From NCBI GenBank assembly GCA_903926075.1, contig CAIYHQ010000128.1, forward strand, positions 1-64,000: a stretch of DNA of 64,000 nt, given 5' to 3'. Below the pieces are notes generated by a model, which ran no database searches, had not been told where the DNA came from, and saw only the letters and a list, made by a program, of their open reading frames with translations. The stretch is from an uncultured Methanomicrobiales archaeon. GTDB taxonomy: Archaea; Halobacteriota; Methanomicrobia; Methanomicrobiales; Methanospirillaceae. This document shows positions 54,790-64,000 of the stretch, piece by piece (position 1 is the first letter of the stretch; every line of letters begins with the position of its first letter). The position numbers and the translations under genes were made by a program.

Positions 54790-55149
54790 TTACAACACAC
54801 ATACCTTGCAGTCCTGCTGACCGCAGGGAATGTTTTCTATCTTCCATTTCAGAGCCCAACTTTTAATACCCCTTATCACGTTGATGATCTCAAGCCCGCT
54901 TTCTGTCAAAGTATATTCAGTCCTGACCGGAAATGAGGTCGCATCGACATATCGGTTAAGAATCCCCTCCCTCTCAAGCTCCTTCAACCTTTCAGAGAGG
55001 ACTTTTGGTGTGATATCATGTAGGGATTCACGAAGATCTGAAAACCTTCGAGTGTAACGTTCGCCTTTATAGAGCTCAAGTATTATCAGTAATGTCCATT
55101 TTTTTGTCAAATATTTCACGGTTTTATTAACTGTGCATGTATTCTGCAT
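54790..55149 (-). CDS. HxlR-family transcriptional regulator
   Basis: 119 residues. The winged helix is clear (VKYLTKKWTLLIILELYKGERYTRRFSDLRESLHDITPKVLSERLKELEREGILNR). A Cys near the start (NTCTVNK) is at the position used by redox-sensing HxlR/YodB proteins, and the C-terminus adds CGQQDCKVC, a further candidate redox or metal site. It precedes the ferredoxin-domain gene (about 60-bp gap) and is divergent from hcp across an 84-bp gap, so it likely controls both in response to NO or reactive nitrogen. This is inference from arrangement. Confidence 0.88.
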   Translation of the reverse strand: MQNTCTVNKTVKYLTKKWTLLIILELYKGERYTRRFSDLRESLHDITPKVLSERLKELEREGILNRYVDATSFPVRTEYTLTESGLEIINVIRGIKSWALKWKIENIPCGQQDCKVCVL

Positions 55150-55166: not shown

Positions 55167-55233
55167 TCCTGATTATTTATAATTTGGTATGCTATTGATA
55201 TCTCGTATTAAAAAAGAACTAGGGAGTAAGATA

Positions 55234-56574
55234 ATGTTTTGTTACCAGTGCGAAGAAACCGTTAAAGGAACGGGATGTACGGTCAAGGGTGTATGCGGCA
55301 AGGAGGACGAGATCGCAGCATACCAGGATTTGCTTATTTATATTTGCAAAGGGATCTCAAAGAGAAACCTTGCAGCAATGGAAAAAGGAGAAGGAGATCC
55401 GAAAGTAGGATTATTTATTGCTGATTCACTTTTTTCCACACTGACTAATGTGAATTTTGACAAAGCAAGATTCTCTGACCTTATTACGAGTGCCATAAAT
55501 ATGCGTGATAACCTTCCAGTTACCGGAAATAGTGAACCAGATGCCTGTACCTGGAAACCCAAAAGTGAAACTGATATCCTGGAAAAAGCAAGAACGGTAG
55601 GTATTCTTTCAACTTCGAATGAAGATGTCCGTTCTCTTCGTTCTACTCTTCTCTTTGGTCTTAAAGGGATAGCCGCTTACTATACCCATGCTTCGATTCT
55701 TGGTAAGACTGATGAATCAATCACAACCTTTCTCCAGAGAGGCCTTGCATCCACACTCCAGGATCTGACAGTCCCAGAGATGGTGGCTCTCTTAATGGAG
55801 TGCGGAAGTACAGGGGTCACAACTCTTTCACTTCTCGATGAGGCTAATACATCTGCCTATGGTAATCCCAGGATAACTAATGTTAAAACAACTGTTGGAA
55901 CACTTCCGGGAATTCTGATTACCGGGCATGATTTAAAGGATATGGAACAGCTTCTTGAACAATCAAAAGACGCCGGGGTAGAAGTATACACTCACGGTGA
56001 GATGTTACCGGCACACGCCTACCCTGCGTTCAAAAAATATACTCACCTTTATGGCAATTATGGTGGTTCGTGGCCACATCAAAAGAAAGAATTTGAAAGA
56101 TTCAATGGACCAGTACTGGTTACGACCAACTGTATTGTGCCCCCTGCGGATTCTTATCGCGACCGTCTCTTTACAACCGGGCTTACCGGATATCCAGGAG
56201 TCAAACACATTTTTGCATCTGCTGGCGGTAAGAAAGATTTCTCTTCAATAATTGATCTCGCAAAAACGTCCCAGCCACCTCAGGACCTGGGTCAGGGCGG
56301 TGCTGACCTGATTACCGGTTGTGCCCATGATGCGGTGCTCGCGATAGCAGACAAGGTTGTTAATGCGGTTTCTTACAATATTGCATGGTATGAACAAAAG
56401 GCACTACTGGTCCTGTTATCATTACTTTCCCTTGGCATCAAAAATATAACACTCGGGCCGAAACTCCCGGCCTTTGTTTCACCTGCTGTGCTCGATGTGC
56501 TCGTGAAAAATTTCGATCTGAAGCCAAACACAACTGTGGACGCAGACCTCGCCCGGATGTTAAAGGGCCTGTAA
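55234..56574 (+). CDS. hcp: Hybrid-cluster protein (hydroxylamine reductase), class III
   Basis: 446 residues from ATG 55234, chosen because GGGAG lies nine bases upstream and because it gives the family N-terminus FCYQCEETVKGTGC. The first four Cys (CxxC-x8-C-x5-C) bind the [4Fe-4S] cluster. The hybrid-cluster ligands appear in MVALLMECG, ITGHDLKDME, VTTNCIVPP, TGLTGYPGV, and TGCAHD. The short length is class III, as in archaea. Hcp reduces hydroxylamine and, as shown in bacteria, NO to N2O. Divergent HxlR and ferredoxin genes support a nitrosative-stress role. A TATA-like TTATTTATAATTT lies about 55 bp upstream. Confidence 0.95.
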   Translation: MFCYQCEETVKGTGCTVKGVCGKEDEIAAYQDLLIYICKGISKRNLAAMEKGEGDPKVGLFIADSLFSTLTNVNFDKARFSDLITSAINMRDNLPVTGNSEPDACTWKPKSETDILEKARTVGILSTSNEDVRSLRSTLLFGLKGIAAYYTHASILGKTDESITTFLQRGLASTLQDLTVPEMVALLMECGSTGVTTLSLLDEANTSAYGNPRITNVKTTVGTLPGILITGHDLKDMEQLLEQSKDAGVEVYTHGEMLPAHAYPAFKKYTHLYGNYGGSWPHQKKEFERFNGPVLVTTNCIVPPADSYRDRLFTTGLTGYPGVKHIFASAGGKKDFSSIIDLAKTSQPPQDLGQGGADLITGCAHDAVLAIADKVVNAVSYNIAWYEQKALLVLLSLLSLGIKNITLGPKLPAFVSPAVLDVLVKNFDLKPNTTVDADLARMLKGL

Positions 56575-56663: not shown

Positions 56664-59029
56664 ATGGAAAATACGTTCCAGGTCCTTTATGTTGATGATG
56701 AACTGGAGCTCCTTGAGTTAGGTAAGTTGTACCTTGAGGAAGCAGGAAATTTTTCCATTGTGACAGAAAATTCAGCATTTGAAGCTTTTTTACTACTTAA
56801 TGAAAGAAGATTTGATGCCATTATATCGGATTTCCAGATGCCAGGCATGAATGGTATCGATTTTTTAAAGAAAGTAAGAAGTTCAGGAAATAATATTCCC
56901 TTCATTCTTTTTACTGGCCGGGGACGTGAAGATATTGTGATCCAGGCTTTAAATGAAGGGGCAGACTTTTACCTCCAGAAAGGTGGAGACCCTTTAACAC
57001 AGTATACTGAGCTCGAGCACAAAGTCCGCCATGCAATCAATCAAAAATGTGCAGAAAATGAGTTAAGAGAGAGTATTGCGAGGTATAATTCGCTTATTGT
57101 CGTCTCAAACACCGGTGCGTAGGAATACCACCGTGACCAAGGCTACCTCTGGTGCAGCCCTGAATATCTCTCAATGCTTGGTTTTAACACCTGCCAGTTT
57201 AATTTTTCAGGTTCTGCAAATTTGAAAGAGACCTGGATCGACCTGCTCCACCCGGATGACCGTATCGAGGCGGTGAGGAAATTTACACAATATCTAGAGG
57301 ACGGATCACCCGGCATTTACGAGAATTATTTCAGGATGCGGCATGCTGATGGGTGTTGGGTCTGGATCTACTCCCGTGGTATAACATTGCGTGACAAAAA
57401 TGAAGTCCTGACTGATAAAACAATCGGTACCCATATCAATATTACTGACTCCAAAATGACAGAGGAAGCAGTGCGAATAACAAGCCGATTAATGAAATAT
57501 TCACTGATTTGTCTTCAAATGGACATTCTGTCTTTGAGACAGGGCATGTGAGAAAAGAGGGGAATATTATTCCTGTTGAAATTAATGCCCATATTTTCAC
57601 TCTCCTGGGTAACCAGGTAATTTTATCAGTTATCCGGGATATTACAAAACGCAAAGGAGCTGATGAAGAGGCAAAAAAAGCGGCAGAAAATGTGAGGACA
57701 TTGCTTAATTCAATTGATGAAATGGTCTTTGTATTTGATCAAAATGGATTTATTCTTAAGGCAAATGAAGCTGTAAAAAAAAGACTCCAGTACACGGATA
57801 AAGAGATTATCGGGATGCATGTCCTGCAGATTAATGTGCCAGAAAGGAGAGGAGAAACTTACGCCATCTTTTCCGGGATTCTTGACGGGACAGCCACGAC
57901 CTGTCCGGTTCCTGTTATTGCAAAGGATGGCACCCGTATTGAAGTCGAAACTAAGGTTGTTAGAGGCACCTGGGACGATATGGAAGTATTTATTGGTGTC
58001 TCGAGGGATGTTACTGAGCGAAATAAAGCCGAAGTAGAATTGCGAGAAAGCGAAGAACGGTTTAAAACACTTGCCAATGCGGCTTTAGAAGGGATCCTGA
58101 TCCACGAAAATGGTATAATTCTTGACTGCAACCCAAAGTTTGCTGAAATGTTTGGATACGAACAGAAAGAGATAATTGGTAGAAACGGCTTTAAATTCAT
58201 GTTAACCCCTAAATCGCGTGGCTTAATTTTTGAATGGAGACAAAACGGGGCTAAAGGTACTATTGATATCGTTGGTATCAGGAAGGACAAGACGGAGTTC
58301 TATGGGGAAACTTCAACGACCACTATTAACTGGCGTGGAAAGCAGCATTCGATGGTGCATATGTATGATATAACAGAACGAAAAAAGGCAGAGGAAGCGT
58401 TGCGGGAAAGTGAAGAAAGACTCAGACTAAAACTGGATTCTGTCCTTTCTCCGGAGATAGACCTTGGTGAACAGGACCTAGCCCAAATCATTGATACTGC
58501 CTCAATTCAATCAATGTTTAATGATTTTCATCAGATCACCGGGATGCCTATCGGAATTGTGGACCTGAAAGGAAATGTTCTTGTTCATGTGGGTTGGCAG
58601 GACATCTGTACAAAATTCCACAGATTACACCCTGAAACCTTAAAAAATTGTATTGAAAGTAATCGCATTTTAAGTAAAGGAGTTTCAAAAGGGGAGTTTC
58701 GGGCATACCGGTGCAGGAACAATATGTGGGACATTGTAACACCCATCTTCATTGGTAACAAGCATGTAGGGAATATGTTTTTTGGTCAGTTTCTATATGA
58801 TGATGAGAAACCTGATCTTCAATTATTTATAAAAACAGCCCAGCAATTCGGATTTGATAAGGATGAGTACCTCGAAGCTCTCAACCGTGTCCCAAGATGG
58901 AGCAGGGAAAAAATTCAGAATACTATGAAATTTTATGCAAAATTTGCAGAGTTAATTTCAAAACTTAGTTACAGCAACCTGAAACTTGCAAAAATTATAG
59001 CTAACCAGAATTTAAACTTTAATAGTTAA
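56664..59029 (+). pseudogene. Decayed receiver-PAS-PAS-PAS-PocR sensor gene
   Basis: A once continuous gene now broken twice. The receiver (D56 in ISDFQMPGMNG, GGD) is intact to 57119, but TAG at 57120-57122 interrupts the first PAS where a Trp codon (TGG) is expected; the frame continues after it as EYHRDQGYLWCSPEYLSML. At about 57472-57485 the second PAS lacks roughly 65-70 residues and changes frame, resuming as NNKPINEIFTDL. From there two more PAS domains (about 57.7-58.4 kb) and a PocR sensory domain (58.43-58.98 kb, with CTKFHRLHP and CRNNMWDIVTP) are intact to the stop, but no kinase follows. A fragment from near 57.5 kb could still be translated. 11 bp overlap with fwdC at the 3' end. 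Confidence 0.85.
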
Positions 59030-59783
59030 AAAATGAGCTAACAACTAATTCTCCTTTGCCATTGTTCGCCATATCGCCTTCGAATCTGCAAAATTTTTTA
59101 CCTCCAATTCGCACTGTACCTTTCTTTTCAAAAGTCGGAAGCATATCATAAACCCTCCCTGAAACAATACATCTTCCTCCAGTCATACCTCCGCAAACGC
59201 GTTCACTATCTCCATCGATTAATAGTTCTCCACTTCGCAATCCTACTCCGGACAGGTCACCTGACCTTCCATGAATGTGGATAGTGCCTCCTGACAGGTA
59301 CCCTGCCGTGAAATCTCCTGAATTACGATACACTTCAATTTTACCCCCTTCCATTCCTTTACAGCCAATCCGGTAGGCAGCTCCACAAAAATGGGAAGCG
59401 TCCCCATGACAGGTTATTAGGCCACCCGTCATTCCGGACCCAAGCCATGATCCGGCATTACCATGTATTGTTATTGTACCTCCACTCATAAAATTGCCAA
59501 AATGCATGCCGGCATCCCCAAAAATTGTAATCTTTCCTGAACCCATCTTTTGACCGACCCGCTTTAATCGCCCGGTATCTCCACACAAAACAATCTCAAC
59601 CTCGTCTGGTGAATCGGCCTCCCCTTCTATTGTGACATCGAATATCTCTTCCAGTCCGCGTTTTTTATTTCCTTCGTATAACTCAATACTGATACCCTGA
59701 TAGAATGATTGAGGAATAATCATTTCTGCTTCAACGGGTATTGGTGGATTTTTTGGAATCCGCATACTGAGCGTAACTTTCAA
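59019..59783 (-). CDS. fwdC: Formylmethanofuran dehydrogenase subunit C homologue
   Basis: 254 residues from TTG 59783, chosen for GGAG eight bases upstream and the family-like start KVTLSMRIPKNPPIPVEAE; an ATG six codons later is the alternative. The body is the FwdC beta-helix of G-x-x-x-G-x-x-M-x-x-G-x-I turns (GDAGMHFGNFMSGGTITIHGNAGSWLGSGMTGG) ending GGKKFCRFEGDMANNGKGEL. FwdC, related to the C-terminal glutamate-synthase domain, is structural and contacts FwdA. It is the last gene of the Eha-Fwd operon; no fwdA is present in the window. A 91-bp gap separates it from fwdB. Confidence 0.92.
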   Translation of the reverse strand: MKVTLSMRIPKNPPIPVEAEMIIPQSFYQGISIELYEGNKKRGLEEIFDVTIEGEADSPDEVEIVLCGDTGRLKRVGQKMGSGKITIFGDAGMHFGNFMSGGTITIHGNAGSWLGSGMTGGLITCHGDASHFCGAAYRIGCKGMEGGKIEVYRNSGDFTAGYLSGGTIHIHGRSGDLSGVGLRSGELLIDGDSERVCGGMTGGRCIVSGRVYDMLPTFEKKGTVRIGGKKFCRFEGDMANNGKGELVVSSFFNY

Positions 59784-59874
59784 TAAAACAGCTCCGGAAT
59801 AATTTTTTTCCCTTGGTGTTGAGATAGATTATTATCGGGAAATTTGCCCTGTATAAGTGTATAACTTCTCTTAA

Positions 59875-61170
59875 TCAAGGTTTTACTCCTTTCGAGTCCA
59901 TGATTTTTATATAAATCCTTTTTAATACTTCAGCATCAGAGGGATAACCACTTTGATAAAGTTTTTTTATCGGTACTGGAGTCCCATCCATCCTATAATA
60001 CACCCCCTCTGCATCAATGCCGGATTGAGCGGTTGGTATCTGAATTTTTGAGAGATGAGTAGTGGCATTGATATGTGGGTCAATCTGTATTGTCGGGATT
60101 TGTGCAAGATGCTGGCAACATGGCCTTGGGAGGATTGCCCCTGGATCACTCCCTACGATAAGACATGCATCACATTCATTCCTTGCAAGGACATCAACAG
60201 CGGTAGTCTCTCCCGGGTTGTAATATCCAACCCCCCTTGCAAAGTCAACAGAACTTGGGTATCCGGAGATCTGGTTTAATACTTTTTTTGCACTGTAAAT
60301 ATTTCCATGTTCCCACATCGGGAATATTGATGTTTCTGTGTGCTTGTTCAGTTCACGAGCAAGTTCGACAACATTCCTGATATTTTCAAATTTTCCTCGT
60401 GTCTCTGACAATCCTTGCCCAATAAAAAAAGCACAAACCCGGGAATTTTTAATTAATTCTGCAATATGAACCAGTTGTTCTCTTAAAACACCACTTATGA
60501 ATGCGGGTAAGAGGTCTTTTTTTCCTAGAAATATGACCCTTAATGCCGATAATACGGCATAATCGCAACCAGGGTCGATCTTAACAAACTCATCTGCAAG
60601 ATTTGAAGTACTAGTCTTCCTTGCATCAAAGACTATTACTGTCCTTTTCCTGAATGAATTGTCAAGAAAAAGGTAACGGGCGTAGGTGGTATATCTGCTC
60701 ATATGTCGTGGATGAGACATAACAGGATCACAACCCCAGTATACTACTACATTGGACTTTTCCTTTACCTGTTCAAGAGTACAACCCTGGTGACGCAATT
60801 CCTCAAAGCCTGGGACTGCCGGCCCTTCATATATTGAAGCAGTGTTATCTATAACGCCCCCTATGAGTCCGGCGATTCTGACTCCAAGTAACTGGGCCTC
60901 TTCAAATGAATTACTCCACCCAAAAAGGAGCGGTCTATCGGCATCAAGGAGAATTTCCACGGTCCTGTCTATCGCTTTTTCATATGAGATTTCAAACCAA
61001 TCATTGCGGGTTCTCTCGATAGGACTCTTGAGCCGCTTTGAGCCTGTGAATTTTTTTTCTCCGGTTATACAGGCATTTTGAACTTCAAGTACTTTTTCGC
61101 CCTCTACTTCTACTATAAGATCATCACAAAGGCATCCACAAAAAGGACAGACTACATTCTCAACCCTCGT
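59875..61170 (-). CDS. fwdB: FwdB homologue (formylmethanofuran dehydrogenase subunit B) without canonical catalytic residues
   Basis: 431 residues if read from ACG at 61170; there is an in-frame stop just upstream and no ATG, GTG or TTG before GTG 60960, which would remove 70 residues including the [4Fe-4S] motif CPFCGCLCDD and the fourth Cys (NACITG). GGGGGTG six bases before ACG supports that start. The body is clearly FwdB (GLIGGVIDNTASI, VVYWGCDPVMSHPRHMSRY, SGYPSSVDFARGVGYYNPGET, LIVGSDPGAILP). But where characterised FwdB has Cys-His (SVCHGP) this has Tyr-Glu (SIYEGP, about 114-115), and where they have Arg in PMRGHYN it has PMWEHGN (Trp about 286). So CO2 reduction at tungsten or molybdenum is doubtful. 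It overlaps fwdD by 11 bp. Confidence 0.85.
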   Translation of the reverse strand, partial: TRVENVVCPFCGCLCDDLIVEVEGEKVLEVQNACITGEKKFTGSKRLKSPIERTRNDWFEISYEKAIDRTVEILLDADRPLLFGWSNSFEEAQLLGVRIAGLIGGVIDNTASIYEGPAVPGFEELRHQGCTLEQVKEKSNVVVYWGCDPVMSHPRHMSRYTTYARYLFLDNSFRKRTVIVFDARKTSTSNLADEFVKIDPGCDYAVLSALRVIFLGKKDLLPAFISGVLREQLVHIAELIKNSRVCAFFIGQGLSETRGKFENIRNVVELARELNKHTETSIFPMWEHGNIYSAKKVLNQISGYPSSVDFARGVGYYNPGETTAVDVLARNECDACLIVGSDPGAILPRPCCQHLAQIPTIQIDPHINATTHLSKIQIPTAQSGIDAEGVYYRMDGTPVPIKKLYQSGYPSDAEVLKRIYIKIMDSKGVKP

Positions 61171-61549
61171 ACCTTACACCCCCACAGGCAGCCATCAATT
61201 TCCATACCGGAATTATGTCAAGAGTTGTTATTGAGACCGAGACTTCCACCCACTTGAAATCCGGAACTCCGGTCCCGTGTGTGTCGAAATCAAGGAGAAA
61301 ATTTGCATAGGGCCCGGCCGGGAGAAAAAGGGTCCCTCTGTCAACTTCCTCCTCCTCCGTTATATATACTATAACCATTACACCGTTTCTGGATAATATG
61401 ATGTGATTATCATCCTCAAGTCCAAGTATCATCATATCCACAGGGTTCATGGAACATGCCGAAACAACGTGCTGGTATTCAAATGAATTTTTCATAGAAA
61501 GGTTTGAACACTGACTGGTTGTCCTCCCGGTATTAAGTAAAAATTTCAC
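61160..61549 (-). CDS. fwdD: Formylmethanofuran dehydrogenase subunit D homologue
   Basis: 129 residues from GTG, overlapping the stop of the polyferredoxin by one base. FwdD is the molybdopterin-dinucleotide-binding C-terminal domain split off as a subunit: KFLLNTGRTTSQ, then ACSMNPVDMMILGLEDD, VDRGTLFLPAGPYANFLL, and TGVPDFKWVEVSV are family phrases. It completes the pterin site of FwdB. The pterin-contact segments look intact although the FwdB catalytic residues are not. Between the polyferredoxin and fwdB, in one operon. Confidence 0.9.
   Translation of the reverse strand: MKFLLNTGRTTSQCSNLSMKNSFEYQHVVSACSMNPVDMMILGLEDDNHIILSRNGVMVIVYITEEEEVDRGTLFLPAGPYANFLLDFDTHGTGVPDFKWVEVSVSITTLDIIPVWKLMAACGGVRYEG
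61177..61183 (-). promoter_or_regulatory. Shine-Dalgarno GGGGGTG for the ACG start of fwdB
   Basis: On the minus strand GGGGGTG is followed by six bases and then ACG AGG GTT GAG AAT, which matches the usual fwdB beginning (M)RVENVVCPFC. The site lies inside the end of fwdD. It is the main evidence that translation starts at ACG. Confidence 0.55.
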
Positions 61550-62157
61550 TAATTCACAACCCCCTGAACCGCTTCCAGGATTTTAACAATATATATAGAA
61601 TTATTAGGGCAGACAGTCTCACATATTTTACACCCAGTACATTTATCGCTATTTTGAACCTTCACTTTCCCTTTGGAACCAACACGGATAACAAGATTAT
61701 TACTAATTTCTAACTTGTTGGAATTAGAATCTCTATCACGAATTTCTATATTAACCGGGCAGGCACTGGAACAGTTTCCGCAACCTGTGCATTTAAAGTC
61801 TTTTATCTCTATATAAAAAGAACAATTCAGATGGCTTGACTGGATTTGCGTCCACTCCCTTACTTTACCACTTTGAAGCACATTATGTGGACATGCTTCA
61901 ACACAAATACCACACCGGATGCAACATTCTTTATGAATAAAAGGTATCCATCCTTTTTCAGTTTTTAACACTTCTATTGCACCAGGTGACGGACAAACCA
62001 TCATACAAAGAAGAGTATGTGAACAGGGATTTCCTGTCGATTCGGGAAAGTCCCGAAAATAAGGAGGAGAAACGAGGGCTTGAGTCCGAGGAAAGAAAAA
62101 AGATTTCCACCATCGTAGCCGTGCAACCTCCTGGATATAGTAATATAGGGATACCAT
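61549..62157 (-). CDS. Polyferredoxin of the Eha-Fwd operon
   Basis: 202 residues from ATG 62157 (GGAG ten bases upstream); a TTG at 62181 is an alternative but overlaps ehaO. N-terminal about 45 residues (YYYIQEVARLRWWKSFFFP) resemble EchF/HycF-type hydrogenase ferredoxins. Then a partial cluster motif (CSHTLLCMMVCP) and three complete [4Fe-4S] motifs: CIRCGICVEACP, CTGCGNCSSACP, CTGCKICETVCP. It lies between the hydrogenase large subunit and fwdD, so it is the likely electron wire from hydrogenase to the Fwd-like module. Corresponds in position to EhaP/EhaQ. Confidence 0.85.
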   Translation of the reverse strand: MVSLYYYIQEVARLRWWKSFFFPRTQALVSPPYFRDFPESTGNPCSHTLLCMMVCPSPGAIEVLKTEKGWIPFIHKECCIRCGICVEACPHNVLQSGKVREWTQIQSSHLNCSFYIEIKDFKCTGCGNCSSACPVNIEIRDRDSNSNKLEISNNLVIRVGSKGKVKVQNSDKCTGCKICETVCPNNSIYIVKILEAVQGVVN

Positions 62158-62161
62158 AAAG

Positions 62162-63247
62162 TTATCGCTCCGTGCAGGCAATGCATGGATCTATTGACAC
62201 AAATACTGACGCAACGTCAGCAATTGATTCGAGTCCAGGGATCATTTTTTGCATACAGACCTCAATATTCATAATTGAGGGTGTCTCAATTGCAATGTCT
62301 ATTATTCTCCCGGCATCATCAGTCTTAATAAAATAGGTGAGTTGTCCTCTGGGAGCCTCACCACTGTGCGTTATCTCCCCGGCTTTAGGAATGCCACCAA
62401 AACGGACTAGACCCCCGGGAAGAGTCGCGAGGGCGGTTTTAATGAGATCAATACTCTGAATTATCTCTGAGAATCTCAACATGACTCTTGCATAGTTATC
62501 CTTACCGTTACTGACTATGGACACAAAATCCAGTTTCTGGTATACAGGATGTTCAAGCCTGCAGTCGAAAGTTATTCCGCTTCCCCTGGCGAGGGGGCCG
62601 ACTGCATGGTTTAACCTTGCAGATTCTTCAGTTAATATACCGATACCCCTGCTCCTTAAAGCAATCAATGGGCCTGTACTGAACATATTCATCCACTGAT
62701 TAACATTCACTTCAAGCTTTTTAAGTCGAACTGGTATTGACCTCATTTCCTCATCTGAAATATCAAACCTCACACCACCTGGAATTATATACGAACAGGT
62801 TACCCTTGCCCCGGTCAGCCTTTCAAGTTCATCCATAACTGATTCCCTTTCGTTGAGCAGGTACATGGCAAGGGTCTCATGACCTATCGTATTGCAGTAA
62901 GAAATATTTGCAAGCAGGTGACTCTGAATCCTGTCAAATTCATTGGCTATAACTCTTAAGTAAAGTGCCCTTGGAGACACTTCGATTCCACTTATCTTCT
63001 CAATACTTTCTATAAATACCATGTTATGGATGACTGAGCAGACCCCGCATACACGTTCCGCAATGAACATAACCTCCTGCCATGGCTTTCCTCGCATAAT
63101 TCTTTCAATACCTCTTTTCATGTAGCCAAGCTCGGTTTCACATGAGAGGACATATTCACCTTTTGTCTCACACATTATTCTTACCGGCTCCCTGAAACAG
63201 GGATGCACAGGACCAAGCGGTATTGAGATATCAACGATTTTTTTCAT
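62162..63247 (-). CDS. ehaO: Energy-converting [NiFe] hydrogenase large subunit (EhaO-type)
   Basis: 361 residues. The two NiFe ligand motifs are intact: ERVCGVCS (about 65-72) and DPCIACTER at the very C-terminus. The opening IPLGPVHPCFREPVRI and the RIQSHLLANISYCNTIG helix are group 4 (membrane-associated) hydrogenase features. The end at CTER shows there is no cleavable C-terminal extension, as in other group 4 enzymes. It oxidises H2 and, with ion flow, reduces ferredoxin. It needs HypB-type maturation. It overlaps ehaN (TGATG) and ends four bases before the polyferredoxin ATG. Confidence 0.93.
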   Translation of the reverse strand: MKKIVDISIPLGPVHPCFREPVRIMCETKGEYVLSCETELGYMKRGIERIMRGKPWQEVMFIAERVCGVCSVIHNMVFIESIEKISGIEVSPRALYLRVIANEFDRIQSHLLANISYCNTIGHETLAMYLLNERESVMDELERLTGARVTCSYIIPGGVRFDISDEEMRSIPVRLKKLEVNVNQWMNMFSTGPLIALRSRGIGILTEESARLNHAVGPLARGSGITFDCRLEHPVYQKLDFVSIVSNGKDNYARVMLRFSEIIQSIDLIKTALATLPGGLVRFGGIPKAGEITHSGEAPRGQLTYFIKTDDAGRIIDIAIETPSIMNIEVCMQKMIPGLESIADVASVFVSIDPCIACTER

Positions 63248-63699
63248 CAGGGTTCAGCCTTAAAGTCAGGAAAGATTTTTGGTATCTGGGCAAGAATCGC
63301 AGCGATAATCTCGGTTGGACGTGGAGGACATCCAGATACATTGGCATAAACCGGAATATGCTTTGAGACAGGCGGGTCGATATATGACCCTCTCCTATTG
63401 AATACTGAGCCGGATTGTGGACAATTGCCAATTGCTATTGCAGCCTTTGGCGCCGGAATTTTATCCCATAAAATACGAAGCTTATCATCCCATCCAGGAG
63501 TAAATGCTCCAGCGACAAGGAGTATATCTGCTTCCCTTGGGTTGTTATGGATAACTATACCATATTGCCCGATATCATACCTTGGAGCAAGGCATGCAAG
63601 CACCTCAATACCACATCCATTGCATGAACCTGCATCAACATAACACACATGGATGGAACGCCTCCTCACAATGTTCATTATAGATTGAAATGCTGTCAT
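63247..63699 (-). CDS. ehaN: Energy-converting hydrogenase small subunit (EhaN-type)
   Basis: 150 residues of the NuoB/EchC-type small subunit. It binds one proximal [4Fe-4S] cluster: CNGC in VDAGSCNGCGIEVLACLAPRYD, then IGNCPQSGSVF and VSGCPPRPTEI supply the other Cys. The family length is normal. It relays electrons from the NiFe site in EhaO to the ferredoxin subunits. It overlaps the upstream gene by four bases (ATGA) and the downstream gene by one. Confidence 0.92.
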   Translation of the reverse strand: MTAFQSIMNIVRRRSIHVCYVDAGSCNGCGIEVLACLAPRYDIGQYGIVIHNNPREADILLVAGAFTPGWDDKLRILWDKIPAPKAAIAIGNCPQSGSVFNRRGSYIDPPVSKHIPVYANVSGCPPRPTEIIAAILAQIPKIFPDFKAEP

Positions 63700-64000
63700 T
63701 TTCCAAAAATCTCCCTTAACTGGGAGAGGCCATCATTAATTGCCTTCTCGATTGACGTTCCGGCTGCAATTGACATTTCAACAGATCGGATAATGCCCTC
63801 CATCTGTTCCTTACGGTATAATGGGATATGCAATACAAAAAAACGGTATCCTATCTCATGGGCGACCCTGCTGACTGGCGTTTTATCATTTATTCCGGCT
63901 TGATAGTGTGTAGGAAGATTTTCAAGCGAGACCATATCAAAATTCTCTATCAGATATAGTCTTAATTTCTGAGGTGGTATTTTCAGCCTTTTAGATATTG
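63696..64000 (-). CDS. ehaM: Energy-converting hydrogenase subunit EhaM-like (DUF1959), 5' partial
   Basis: The frame is open to the right edge, so the N-terminus lies outside the window; 100 codons are visible. Segments KRLKIPPQKLRLYLIENFDMVSLENLPTHYQAG and then HEIGYRFFVLHIPLYRKEQMEGIIRSVE and EKAINDGLSQLREIF agree with the DUF1959 family, which in Eha operons is EhaM. It is a small soluble subunit of unknown role. The order ehaM-ehaN-ehaO is that of Methanothermobacter eha. The membrane subunits should lie beyond the right edge. Confidence 0.75.
   Translation of the reverse strand, partial: ISKRLKIPPQKLRLYLIENFDMVSLENLPTHYQAGINDKTPVSRVAHEIGYRFFVLHIPLYRKEQMEGIIRSVEMSIAAGTSIEKAINDGLSQLREIFGK

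Follow-up and report, generated by a model that had tools for sequence, protein, structure and literature searches.

In formylmethanofuran dehydrogenase, the formate made by the FwdB subunit is used by the product of fwdA. FwdB is one of the most ancient subunits for CO2 reduction and has been assigned a basal position in its superfamily (PMC7331816); in its active site a cysteine (Cys118) is the protein ligand of tungsten or molybdenum (W/Mo), and His119 is the proposed gate (PMC11656701). An Eha-Fwd operon in which fwdA lies between fwdB and fwdC has been described for Methanomicrobiales (PMC2686161), and in Methanothermobacter FwdA is common to the isoenzymes (PMC3087415). Eha is known to have an anaplerotic role as a supplier of reduced ferredoxin (PMC5116941, citing Lie et al., 2012). 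The homologue of a C1-pathway enzyme can also be a subunit of Eha, as is the case for EhaT of Methanothermobacter, which resembles formyltransferase (PMC3087415). EhaT and FwdB belong to different protein families.

NuoG/Nqo3 is an FeS-cluster subunit of complex I, which pumps ions and is related to group 4 hydrogenases. This formate-dehydrogenase-like subunit lacks Mo/W-bisPGD (PMC10100899), is ancient and widespread in complex I, belongs to a different subfamily from FwdB and takes its electrons from NADH. In the formyltransferase/hydrolase complex of methylotrophic bacteria, the FwdB homologue FhcB lacks the catalytic metal ligand and serves as a non-catalytic scaffold (PMC10100899, PMC11656701); it works without FwdD and metallopterin and sits with FhcA, its partners being FhcA and FhcD. 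Among archaea, the Molybdop protein of the type II HdrA-FdhB clusters of Methanosarcinales and ANME-2/3 is without the Cys118 equivalent and has been proposed to have a structural and non-catalytic place in a complex for electron transfer (PMC12054007). Here, a FwdB homologue encoded beside the Eha hydrogenase of an uncultured Methanomicrobiales archaeon is described and compared with these systems.

The window (the whole stretch of DNA analysed, 64,000 nucleotides) is part of contig C128, a 131-kb contig of one draft assembly in 134 contigs, and the genome is the only member of its genus in our collection. A fwdB-like gene on the reverse strand (59875..61170) encodes 431 amino acids, and its reading frame (59875-61173, reverse strand) is open across 432 codons. 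The product scores 484.9 bits (cut-off 327.8) with TIGR03129 (NCBIfam, formylmethanofuran dehydrogenase subunit B), covering positions 1-420 of the 421 of the profile, and a phmmer search of PDB chains paired it with the FwdB chains 8rja_B, 5t5i_B, 9sfi_Q, 7bkb_H and 9sw6_J. The FwdB fold is also supported by an AlphaFold model (pLDDT 75), for which 5t5i is the best structural match and which has a fold match to FhcB (6s6y_B). The segments 110-132, 287-292 and 302-320 of this model are below 50; since a canonical orthologue modelled from the same alignment as a control (pLDDT 77) was low in nearly the same places, the model is uninformative on the pocket.

The initial annotation had proposed that the catalytic Cys-His-Arg is gone at about positions 114, 115 and 286, and the alignments bore this out. 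DNTASIYEGP pairs with DNTASVCHGP of Methanothermobacter wolfeii FwdB (5t5i_B), with Tyr-Glu opposite Cys118-His119, and FPMWEHGN pairs with IPMRGHYN of the same chain, with Trp opposite the Arg of PMRGH (phmmer); this Arg is presumably Arg288 in the numbering of the initial annotation. In the 431-residue numbering, Tyr114 and Glu115 (TAT GAA, 60826..60831, reverse strand) replace the metal-ligand Cys and the gating His, and Trp286 and Glu287 (TGG GAA, 60310..60315, reverse strand) replace the catalytic Arg and the adjoining Gly. Cys, His, Arg and Gly occupy the four columns in 40/40 aligned relatives, and Cys-His-Arg is intact in all 58 other FwdB proteins collected. Those columns hold no substitute Cys-His pair or Arg. 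The His290 equivalent is retained as His288. The four [4Fe-4S] cysteines (C8, C11, C15 and C34; 61069..61149, reverse strand) and the HPRHMSRY and RGVGYYNPGE blocks are likewise retained, as had been read from the letters; the further statement that the stretch from WGCDPV to HPRHMSRY is kept holds too, except that Asp148 of WGCDPV is Asn in 40/40 relatives, this N148D change lying at the edge of the first of two changed segments.

In the 40-relative alignment these segments contain all of the departures from strict conservation. Among the 40 relatives 107 columns are invariant, and the fwdB-like protein departs at 23 of them, all within the two active-site segments (23/42 columns, against 0/65 elsewhere), whereas individual relatives depart at 6 or fewer of the columns counted as invariant. 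The first segment (residues 101-148; 60727..60870, reverse strand) has 14/24 invariant columns altered (16/30 with a set of 17 relatives) and the second (residues 245-300; 60271..60438, reverse strand) 9/18 (15/29 with the 17 relatives). The segments were delimited after the data had been seen; two tests that are independent of that choice indicated clustering, namely a permutation scan of the 40-relative alignment (p = 5e-5 for the densest 20-column stretch) and a runs test in the 17-genome set for which the operon was fetched (p = 0.0005; 31/59 altered in the two segments vs 3/94 outside). In the same 17-genome set, none of the eight other module subunits showed significant clustering of changes. 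As the two segments contain the Cys-His and Arg positions, they probably line the active site.

Such a pattern is not that of random decay, which predicts scattered changes and stops, neither of which is present. In a simulation of neutral mutation to 22% amino-acid change about five stops were expected and the probability of none was about 0.007; the gene contains 0. It is also not a simple pseudogene, since its remainder is under strong constraint. As far as conservation can tell, constraint has been lifted from the pocket and its flanking segments but still acts on the remainder of the subunit and on the FeS chain. A single sequencing error is excluded for Tyr-Glu and Trp-Glu because several base changes are involved at two places about 170 codons apart. 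Although the assembly is a draft, an artefact of assembly or sequencing in any broader sense, or a chimeric gene, is hardly credible, given several independent base changes in two segments within an intact frame, an entire operon that sits on one long branch near the same family, and a contig of this length. All three catalytic residues (metal ligand, gating His and Arg) are replaced and more than half of the otherwise invariant segment columns are altered, which gives good support to the earlier view that the usual reduction of CO2 is beyond this subunit; the companion proposal, that it may have been repurposed, with electron transfer, a pterin module or another substrate as candidate roles, draws indirect support from the constraint on the remainder.

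The gene order around the fwdB-like gene is largely that of the Eha-linked Fwd of Methanomicrobiales. Reading on the reverse strand, the window begins within ehaM (DUF1959; 63696..64000), which runs past the window to contig position 64085 and beyond which lie ehaL and ehaJ. It is followed by ehaN (hydrogenase small subunit; 63247..63699), in which the likely cluster ligands C26, C29, C93 and C124 are retained and C98 is changed to Ser, and by ehaO ([NiFe] hydrogenase large subunit with RVCGVC and DPCIACTER; 62162..63247). Cys98 of EhaN, which is outside the four likely ligands, is conserved in 17/17 relatives. Next are a polyferredoxin with four [4Fe-4S] motifs (61549..62181; recognized by profile matches, 15/15 conserved cysteine columns retained), fwdD (molybdopterin-dinucleotide-binding subunit; 61160..61549; PF01568, with NF042908 below its cut-off), the fwdB-like gene and, after a gap of 91 bp (59784..59874) where relatives have fwdA, fwdC (beta-helix subunit; 59019..59783; TIGR03122, 203.7 bits, above cut-off). 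The cluster ligands are thus unbroken at the sequence level from the [NiFe] site through the polyferredoxin to the [4Fe-4S] site of FwdB. The fwdB-like gene is an orthologue, by sequence and gene order, of the Eha-linked fwdB already described. The locus shares with the described systems the order ehaJ-(L)-M-N-O-polyferredoxin-fwdD-fwdB, 50-58% identity, the [4Fe-4S] site and a downstream fwdC, and differs from them in the replaced Cys-His-Arg, the degenerate pocket, the missing fwdA, a split operon and accelerated evolution (PMC2686161).

EhaO together with FwdA directly after FwdB is the usual arrangement, found in 70/80 contig loci from the search. Here fwdA is absent from the Eha-Fwd operon, and contig C69 carries the genome's sole FwdA; this absence counts in favour of a lost CO2 role of the fwdB-like protein. 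As a proof of inactivity it was rejected, as FwdA is shared in Methanothermobacter (PMC3087415) and one locus without a nearby fwdA (L220) is intact. At that locus (L220:5524-8284, Methanolinea) FwdD and FwdB are fused into a protein of 628 aa with intact CHGP and MRGH. FwdD-FwdB genes without fwdA or eha found alongside also occur at L224, L228, L233, L235 and L236, and the six loci come from Methanolinea, Methanoculleus and other Methanomicrobiales; fwdC is present in L220 and L224.

On contig C69 the genome has a canonical, complete fwdD-B-A-C set, with DNCATVCHGS and AMRGHWN in its FwdB, so the canonical fwdB that the initial annotation had advised looking for is present. Its second suggestion, that further Eha-linked fwdB genes might carry the same substitutions, turned out negative: none was found among the best 30 matches of 199 genomes, in the 80 contig loci or with the degenerate Tyr-Glu pattern, which occurs in 1/232 genomes of the order, this one, and is blind to other replacements. 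A scan of the contig collection with one protein as the query yielded no relatives. Because Eha-linked fwdB genes generally encode ordinary enzymes, the change belongs to one lineage and does not characterize Eha-linked Fwd as such. Two genomes of genus g2 (G161 and G005) were searched, and in both the Eha-linked FwdB is the only FwdB found, from which it follows that it is catalytic there and that the ancestor was catalytic too. The canonical FwdB of the present genome (C69, L002) has 91% identity to that of another genome (G017, L071), a value that does not exceed 71% for any other relative searched, and elongation factor 2 (EF-2) does not group the two genomes; the gene may have been exchanged between them.

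The explanation that we favour, with moderate confidence, is that the fwdB-like protein is a pseudo-FwdB, dead for CO2 and formate, which the Eha module retains as its terminal component for electron transfer or scaffolding. By alignment it descends from an ordinary Eha-linked FwdB of Methanomicrobiales, with the pocket lost and the [4Fe-4S] site retained; the CO2-reducing job would be done by the canonical Fwd complex of contig C69, whose genes are observed and whose job is presumed. FhcB and Nqo3 (PMC10100899), the HdrA-linked Molybdop proteins (PMC12054007) and EhaT (PMC3087415) serve as precedents. Eha would use the ion gradient to bring electrons from H2 via the polyferredoxin into the FwdBCD module, which would pass them not to CO2 but to a soluble ferredoxin or a canonical Fwd docked to it, and would also hold the complex together. 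Eha, once dedicated to a CO2 reductase of its own, would now reduce ferredoxin for more general use.

Against this explanation count the fast evolution of the whole module and the splitting of its operon, which would also fit a module on its way out. Of the membrane subunits, ehaJ adjoins the operon, and ehaB-H are elsewhere on contig C128 (105.4-108.3 kb), on the same strand and 40 kb from ehaJ-fwdC, with two transposase-like genes, identified by eye, in between; ehaI was not found. Rates were compared as the mean tree distance (FastTree) of this genome to other families, relative to that of the family members. The ratio was 1.62 for FwdB, 1.77 for EhaH, 1.58 for EhaJ, 1.47 for the polyferredoxin, 1.40 for FwdD and about 1.3 for EhaN, EhaO and FwdC, against 0.91 for EF-2; the canonical FwdB gave 1.46 in a comparison that probably mixes paralogues. 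When the module without FwdB was concatenated, the terminal branch of the tree was 0.71, compared with 0.15-0.41 in relatives. As the subunits and the concatenated branch are elevated while EF-2 is normal, fast evolution extends to the entire Eha-Fwd module.

Three features that the initial annotation had missed, namely the missing fwdA, the split eha genes and this module-wide acceleration, keep alive the alternative of a dispensable module in early decay, in which the FwdB pocket was lost first and the rest is to follow; we consider it unlikely. Losses in the family are in keeping with it. EhaO and the Eha-type FwdB are jointly absent from G017, G059, G064, G069, G081, G089 and other family members; almost all family genomes without an Eha-type FwdB are also without EhaO, with G177 and G197 as exceptions and with assemblies that are partly fragmented, and since the two are missing together, the Eha-Fwd module tends toward loss as a whole. 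No stop or frameshift was detected in the examined ehaB-H and ehaJ-to-fwdC genes, however, and within FwdB the changes at invariant sites are concentrated in the pocket, outside of which it is better retained (0-3% of invariant columns altered) than EhaO, EhaN, EhaJ and EhaH (10-21%). The start codon of the fwdB-like gene might also be taken as a sign of decay, being ACG (61168..61170, reverse strand) at the ATG position of relatives, where it overlaps the end of fwdD. Intact orthologues nevertheless start at the same place with ACG (L029, G029) or ATC (L034, G142), so that the ACG is not a mark of decay and the absent ATG was ruled out as evidence for it. A fwdB without an ATG, GTG or TTG start is thus seen in three lineages (ACG, ACG and ATC), two of which have an intact active site, which suggests that translation of these genes is coupled to the end of fwdD.

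Whether the protein still carries a cofactor bears on two further alternatives. The good conservation of FwdD and of the residues outside the pocket makes a bound cofactor, and hence some chemistry, possible, which counts against the favoured explanation. An altered enzyme that still binds W/Mo-bisPGD together with FwdD, and whose Tyr/Glu/Trp pocket performs a different two-electron reaction fed by Eha, is in our view unlikely. The many charged replacements for Gly, Met and Asn (G126R, G133E, N137E, M256E and G287E in the 431-residue numbering) suggest that a tunnel was given up, not that a pocket was rebuilt, and there is no second example with a conserved new pocket. Nor is a Tyr known to us as a ligand of Mo/W-bisPGD anywhere in the superfamily, which again speaks against such an enzyme. 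On the other side, FwdD is retained beside FwdB and the invariant residues outside the pocket are all kept, in contrast to FhcB, where loss of the D subunit and loop remodelling accompany the loss of metallopterin (PMC11656701), and oxygen ligands (Ser, Asp) are known elsewhere in the superfamily (PMC10100899). More doubtful is the specific case of a FwdB-family W/Mo-bisPGD protein with Tyr/Glu/Trp for Cys/Sec-His-Arg that has kept its cofactor and FeS chain for new, Eha-driven chemistry; it would be the first member of the superfamily with a Tyr environment.

A pure scaffold, with neither cofactor nor electrons, would attach FwdC, FwdD and the polyferredoxin to the hydrogenase, much as the documented non-catalytic scaffold FhcB holds its own partners in bacteria (PMC10100899). 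We regard it as very improbable because all four [4Fe-4S] cysteines and FwdD are retained, and a scaffold without redox function needs neither. FhcB differs in further respects, as here FwdD stays and FwdA is missing; the protein is far closer in sequence to archaeal FwdB, the genome is archaeal, and the protein does not belong with FhcB. The HdrA-linked Molybdop forms a clade near FdhG/FhcB, is linked to hdrABC, mvhD and fdhB and occurs in many species (PMC12054007), in contrast to the eha and fwd linkage and the one genome here.

The locus, with its pocket lost and the rest tightly constrained within an ion-driven hydrogenase module, offers a means of asking what Fwd contributes to Eha-Fwd apart from the reduction of CO2. 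It also allows one to ask whether the electrons from Eha go to a Fwd of its own or to a common pool of ferredoxin. In one living lineage it displays the sort of step by which NuoG of complex I must once have arisen from a formate-dehydrogenase-like enzyme.

Two minor observations concern the surroundings of the operon. The 40 kb that split the eha operon (C128 65.2-105.4 kb; L004, L066 and L067) contain many genes for PAS-domain histidine kinases and response regulators. On the other side, the window has an open frame at 55189-56574 with a CYQCEET motif, which we take to resemble hybrid-cluster protein, and a divergent gene at 54790-55149, presumably for an HxlR-like regulator.
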